From assembly GCA_029551395.1 (NCBI GenBank), contig JAKPFN010000147.1:1-64000 (forward strand): a DNA stretch of 64,000 bases, given 5' to 3'. Of this stretch, positions 42,823-42,922 are shown one piece after another (the first letter of the stretch is position 1; the number at the start of each line of letters is the position of its first letter). The notes beneath the pieces are model-generated. The model did not search any database and was not told the origin of the DNA. It saw only the letters and a program-made list of their open reading frames with translations. The translations under genes and the position numbers were made by a program. The stretch comes from Armatimonadota bacterium (GTDB taxonomy: Bacteria; Armatimonadota; UBA5829; DTLH01).

Positions 42823-42922
42823 TGGCGGGACCGTGTGGGAATCGAACCCACCCAACGCAAGCATTACTTACGTCGCGGCTGGTTTTGAAGACCAGGCGAG
42901 CCACCAGGCCCGAGCCGGCCCC
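42823..42922 (-). tRNA. selC: tRNA-Sec (anticodon TCA)
   Basis: Minus strand GGGGCCGGCTCGGGCCTGGTGGCTCGCCTGGTCTTCAAAACCAGCCGCGACGTAAGTAATGCTTGCGTTGGGTGGGTTCGATTCCCACACGGTCCCGCCA; 6-bp D stem CGGGCC/GGCTCG with 4-nt loop, loop CTTCAAA, 9-bp variable stem, CCA encoded. Confidence 0.93.

Follow-up and report, generated by a model that had tools for sequence, protein, structure and literature searches.

The gene at 42823-42922 of the window, by which is meant the whole 64,000-nucleotide stretch of DNA analysed here, is a genuine selenocysteine (Sec) tRNA of an Armatimonadota bacterium. The accompanying evidence points strongly to a working tRNA-Sec and to the decoding of UGA as Sec, very probably with a small membrane-anchored protein among its targets. 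In this protein, referred to here as the tail protein, Sec would be the last residue but one. While a tRNA-Sec gene by itself is routine annotation, the value of this one lies in leading to a family of candidate tail selenoproteins, which has a fixed partner gene and is spread over several deep lineages without cultured members, and thereby to a concrete, testable hypothesis. The features of the tRNA are as follows.

42823..42922, minus strand: tRNA-Sec (selC), anticodon UCA, with encoded GCCA end (ARAGORN; Rfam RF01852; RNAfold)
42915..42922, minus strand: acceptor stem, 5′ strand GGGGCCGG, whose eighth base, G8 (42915), stands opposite A at 42834 (sequence; order-wide comparison of pair 8)
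42897..42912, minus strand: D arm CGGGCC / UGGU / GGCUCG, 6 bp with a 4-nt loop
42886..42888, minus strand: anticodon UCA (ARAGORN, anticodon at position 35)
42853..42875, minus strand: long variable arm, 10 bp with a 3-nt loop (RNAfold)
42827..42834, minus strand: acceptor stem, 3′ strand ACGGUCCC; G73 and CCA (42823-42826) come next

The original prediction, a minus-strand tRNA-Sec with anticodon TCA and an encoded CCA, is borne out by two programs. ARAGORN reports tRNA-SeC (tca) at exactly 42823-42922 on the minus strand, and the full RF01852 model matches at 42827-42922 with 68.0 bits (E 9.5e-12) against a gathering score of 47; the poor model score that had been named as grounds for rejection did not occur. 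The UCA anticodon, long variable arm, G73 and encoded CCA are all present as hallmarks of tRNA-Sec. RNAfold gives an acceptor stem of 7 bp, a D stem of 6 bp with the 4-nt loop that had been described, an anticodon stem of 5 bp and a T stem of 5 bp (MFE -48.8, z -2.75). The long variable arm also stood, its stem measuring 10 bp rather than the 9 bp first claimed. This is the sole tRNA-Sec of the window according to Rfam, and no second RF01852 match at E ≤ 1e-9 occurs in the whole genome, where the runners-up are a tRNA-Ser(cga) at 47 bits and a tRNA-Leu(caa) at 46 bits. The neighbouring genes encode a metallo-beta-lactamase-fold protein with a helix-turn-helix, a small membrane protein, an MFS transporter and a tRNA-Ser. 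No selenium-metabolism genes were found among these neighbours in the window and, as anticipated, selA, selB and selD all lie on other contigs. In the closest relative, the tRNA-Sec adjoins genes that, on visual inspection of their translations, resemble a type I-E CRISPR-Cas cluster (L073, G001:C124).

The eighth acceptor pair is G.A, as originally read. A tRNA-Sec was found in 12 of the 19 genomes of the window's order, and pair 8 is purine-purine in every one of them (G.A in ten; A.G in two, both from one genus). Outside the order, 28 tRNA-Sec genes could be read at this position, with a standard pair in 20, G.A in five (all Armatimonadota) and C.A in three. Because the pair is purine-purine in 12 of 12 within the order and mostly standard elsewhere, the sequences identify the G.A pair as a trait of the lineage; and because the mismatch is kept throughout the order, its interpretation as a sign of decay or of a relic was rejected. 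The gene otherwise shares the UCA anticodon, the D stem of 6 bp with a 4-nt loop, the variable arm, G73 and CCA with the bacterial tRNA-Sec of RF01852, from which it differs in having seven standard acceptor pairs and a purine mismatch instead of eight standard pairs. Its acceptor and T stems thus retain a length of 8+5, with G.A in place of a standard pair 8. In known short tRNA-Sec (7+5), one nucleotide is missing from the acceptor arm (PMC5330540), whereas the window's tRNA keeps the 8+5 length with no nucleotide missing. How SelA and SelB recognise a tRNA-Sec with a conserved acceptor G.A is a small puzzle.

The genes that had been named as a check were all found, each above its curated cut-off, in agreement with the Sec use that the tRNA had been taken to imply. 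The selA gene lies on contig C94 (576 bits), and selB (363 bits) and selD (about 378-380 bits, cut-off 125, TIGR00476) lie on contig C66. The selA gene runs off the end of C94 and its final part opens C66; since the two contig ends overlap in sequence within selA, selA-selD-selB form one operon. This operon and the tRNA-Sec gene are unlinked in the genome. It also carries, 3′ of selB, genes for a SAM methyltransferase and a double-cubane-type HGD-D protein. A double-cubane-cluster reductase (NF040772), a BcrAD-type activator and a SAM methyltransferase were noted after selB, within the operon, at L022:3731-5612, L069:12189-14333 and L070:807-6265.

The SelD encoded here is a three-part protein, composed of a Cys-rich N-terminal extension (CxC/CPC/CPC), the SelD portion and a C-terminal CMD/AhpD domain with a CEPC motif (L022:176-1756). 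The same fusion is common to two further genomes of the order (68-69% identity), and 28 relatives of its N-terminal part come from Armatimonadetes, Aminicenantes, Planctomycetota, one record labelled Acidobacteria and unclassified records. Relatives also possess stand-alone SelD proteins, three of which have Cys at the active site (G014, G015 and G018). In five genomes (G001, G005, G007, G008 and G017) the active site contains an in-frame UGA, read as SHGAGUACK, and the Sec-type genes concerned are the following.

L043, L044, L045, L047, L058: stand-alone Sec-type SelD of relatives

Judged from these sequences, UGA is probably read as Sec in the window's order. G017 has both types, namely a stand-alone Sec-type and a fused Cys-type SelD. 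The window's genome has only the fused form, and its active site, KAGCASK, contains Cys, which rules out SelD as the selenoprotein of this genome; another was therefore sought. Formate dehydrogenase was also rejected, the search of the genome for a Sec form having returned just partial matches without stops. A 40-codon extension past the probably exported FKYG protein (L023:1657-2289) was set aside, there being no sign that it is conserved. Apart from the tail gene, no convincing UGA-interrupted gene was found in the window and the two sel contigs.

The advice that genes cut short at TGA be re-read proved sound, in that a strong selenoprotein candidate heads the sel operon itself.

C94 (L023), about 3415 to 3111, minus strand: tail gene, first in the sel operon, whose end reads CPT-TGA-Leu-TAA

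The predicted product has roughly 100 residues, one N-terminal membrane helix and the C terminus ...DACPT-U-L-stop. The directly adjoining gene on its 3′ side encodes a NapH-like membrane ferredoxin of the Fer4_5 type. Matching ORF ends occur in G017 (CPT-TGA-Ile-TAG) and G009 (CPT-TGA-Gly-TAA). In all three genomes a hairpin with no mismatch lies beyond the TGA. That of the window's genome, a SECIS candidate, is TTGATTATGG-GGT-CCATAATCGA, whose 10 bp pair perfectly around a GGU loop placed 28 nt past the UGA, and it overlaps the ferredoxin start codon. Hydropathy and charge place the single helix near the N terminus, so the CxxU end would lie exposed outside the membrane. With selA, selB, selD and a UGA/SECIS candidate gene, the genome thus contains the components of the Sec-decoding trait at the level of sequence. 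The tail gene of C94 very probably encodes a selenoprotein with Sec as its last residue but one, and it is probably this protein that the Sec machinery serves. The interval between the ferredoxin gene and selA also encodes a protein that is probably exported and has F-x-[YF]-G conserved at its C terminus (L023:1657-2289, L070:12843-13490); this protein recurs near the tail/ferredoxin module in other phyla (at the ends of several ORFs, L101-L110).

The CPT-TGA-x-stop ending was first seen in three genomes. Further tails at L088 and L108, Planctomycetota with a CATUGS-stop ending, and additional Armatimonadota and other genomes brought the initial total to 18 loci. Ten more were found among 394 later-sampled Planctomycetota genomes, a sample independent in that it played no part in defining the tail pattern. 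The resulting 28 tails come from Armatimonadota, Planctomycetota and other lineages including Aminicenantes. The scan required C-[PASF]-[TS] 5′ of the TGA and a hydrophobic stretch upstream, and a rescan with no limit set on the second stop returned the identical 28. The tail protein is poorly conserved except for its membrane helix and final residues. The in-frame UGA at the redox motif is nonetheless conserved in all 28 homologues, none of which has TAA or TAG at the Sec site, and it is followed by a second in-frame stop after one codon (9 tails), two codons (17) or three (2). That second stop is TAG in 12, TAA in 12 and TGA in four. Gene callers must miss or shorten members of the family, as the normal ORF ends at CPT, one residue short of the predicted Sec.

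A hairpin with its loop 19-28 nt past the UGA accompanies nearly all 28 tails. Among the 17 distinct sequences, 93.4% of cells are paired, four pairs are altered on both sides and 21 cells show double changes; sliding the partner by 1-3 columns lowers the pairing to 26-50%. None of 500 shuffles matches the observed covariation score or pairing. These shuffles are inflated by the kinship of the sequences, and a control based on tails with Cys in place of Sec therefore weighs more: the best stem 15-40 nt on averages 7.4 bp in Sec tails, as against 4.0 bp in Cys tails and 4.0-4.1 bp in shuffled sequences. The mean folding z of the 28 tails versus mononucleotide shuffles is -2.1. The exceptions are L144, with just a weak alternative stem, and L146, with one mismatch. 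Mere coding conservation of the ferredoxin start was ruled out as an explanation, because the start codon falls in different arms of the hairpin by lineage and the hairpin stays where the start differs.

The Cys counterparts, from other Armatimonadota and Aminicenantes, are smaller single-helix proteins ending in CxxC-Ile/Val-Gly (CxxC-IG(L)). They are encoded directly upstream of the same ferredoxin family and are without the hairpin. The Sec and Cys tails are likely homologous, with proteins that align in architecture only. When Sec and Cys labels are mapped onto a tree built from 47 ferredoxins, two changes suffice (1-3 in bootstraps), versus 14.6 for shuffled labels. G268 has one Sec-type ferredoxin and a second ferredoxin.

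The partner itself is a four-cluster ferredoxin with membrane helices, CxxxCP motifs and two C-terminal Fe-S motifs. These features are shared with NapH/MauN (TIGR02163), to which the partner adds an invariant C-x2-C-x6-CP motif near the N terminus. Its score against that model is 60.4 bits, far below the cut-off of 213, and it is therefore termed NapH-like rather than NapH. A predicted model of the partner has a mean pLDDT of 84 and is least certain at the N-terminal Cys motif (residues 47-54). A fold search of the PDB with this model gave no match of E below 0.9, and sequence matches are confined to the ferredoxin part; the topology of the partner is accordingly a predicted one. A simple hydropathy scan recovered just three of the expected helices, and its result was left unused.

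Tail genes also keep company with tRNA-Sec. A tRNA-Sec is present in 17 of the 18 genomes that carry a Sec tail, the gene not being found in the fragmented assembly of G312; among other Armatimonadota genomes having the ferredoxin, the figure is 17 of 35. In eight genomes (G306, G307, G309, G310, G311, G314, G316 and G317), a distance of 390-760 nt separates the tRNA-Sec from the ferredoxin gene; both are on one strand, and the tail gene occupies the space between them. Some genomes lacking tRNA-Sec, G225-G227 among them, have a Cys form next to the ferredoxin. At L129, L189 (G216) and G215:C58, the tRNA-Sec is directly upstream of a NapH-like ferredoxin, and no tail gene was seen between them.

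In the proposed route, SelA would use selenophosphate from SelD to convert Ser-tRNA-Sec to Sec-tRNA-Sec, which SelB would bring to UGA codons followed by a 3′ SECIS hairpin; Sec would then be inserted at the UGA of the tail gene, the first gene of the sel operon. We infer that the cell decodes this UGA as Sec, since the UGA and the second stop are kept, the hairpin covaries and the Cys counterparts stand beside the same partner. That the tRNA is instead a relic, or an ordinary UGA suppressor without a Sec role, appears exceedingly improbable. The G.A at the eighth acceptor pair and the distance of the gene from selA, selB and selD would speak for such a fate. Against it are the 68 bits to the tRNA-Sec model, the complete set of sel genes, the retention of the pair 8 mismatch in all 12 cases of the order and the SHGAGUACK active sites of several relatives' selD. 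A plain stop after CPT is another reading, by which the tail would end in ...CPT and the hairpin would regulate the ferredoxin gene, for instance as a SECIS-like leader that binds SelB. The overlap of the Armatimonadota hairpin with the ferredoxin start codon fits this account, as does the presence in Escherichia coli of SECIS-like elements that regulate selAB. It remains a very improbable one, however: the codon is TGA in 28 of 28 whereas TAG or TAA predominates at the second stop, the presence of that stop within 1-3 codons is conserved too, the CxxU motif has CxxC counterparts, and the spacing between UGA and hairpin is tight (19-28 nt) though the place of the start codon within the hairpin varies.

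If the tail gene does encode a selenoprotein, its role is a separate matter. It is quite possible, if somewhat short of probable, that the ferredoxin passes cytoplasmic electrons to the exposed CxxU, which would then reduce a target outside the membrane. Alternatively, the selenoprotein may be real and act alone or in selenium handling, for example by supplying selenide to the fused SelD, with no part played by the ferredoxin. Its sharing of the selA-selD-selB operon here and the extra Cys-rich and CMD domains of SelD lend this some appeal. Nevertheless, it is judged unlikely, as the tail gene stays directly upstream of the ferredoxin gene even away from selA, selD and selB, and Cys forms adjoin the ferredoxin in genomes that lack tRNA-Sec. 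Electron transfer from the ferredoxin to the tail may be extended, tentatively and with some doubt, to a full relay. Here the double-cubane protein of the operon, which is ATP-driven, would perhaps feed the NapH-like ferredoxin; the ferredoxin would reduce the exported CxxU and through it an extracytoplasmic target, and the Sec machinery would be kept largely for this protein in part of Armatimonadota, Planctomycetota and Aminicenantes.

On the sequence comparisons made, the tail selenoprotein family seems to be previously unlisted, and an earlier mention elsewhere is possible. No Pfam or NCBIfam 20.0 model matches the Sec forms, and none of the 119 families of the 2026 list, as given in the article itself (PMC13188914), corresponds to a membrane protein ending in CxxU-x-stop with a NapH-like ferredoxin as its neighbour. 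Haft's selenoprotein-neighbourhood families were compared through the table of the 2026 review and NCBIfam. One of the nearest resemblances is to the CD1871A family (NF040920), whose members are likewise tiny membrane proteins with CxxC at the C terminus. Alignment of the Cys counterparts to this model covers almost its full length, with scores below its cut-off (22.5 and 21.9 versus 32 bits), and the model does not match the Sec forms. SaoC ("Cys-Cys-COOH"), KCU-star/DUF466 and UXX-star are alike in placing Sec at the very C terminus or close to it, whereas their motifs are others (CU, GxGU and UxxT) and the tails have no NCBIfam match. Thioredoxin reductase carries a penultimate Sec in a flexible C-terminal tail (GCUG). 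The tail protein would share this penultimate position, and differs in having no flavoprotein, a single-helix anchor and CxxU instead of CU.
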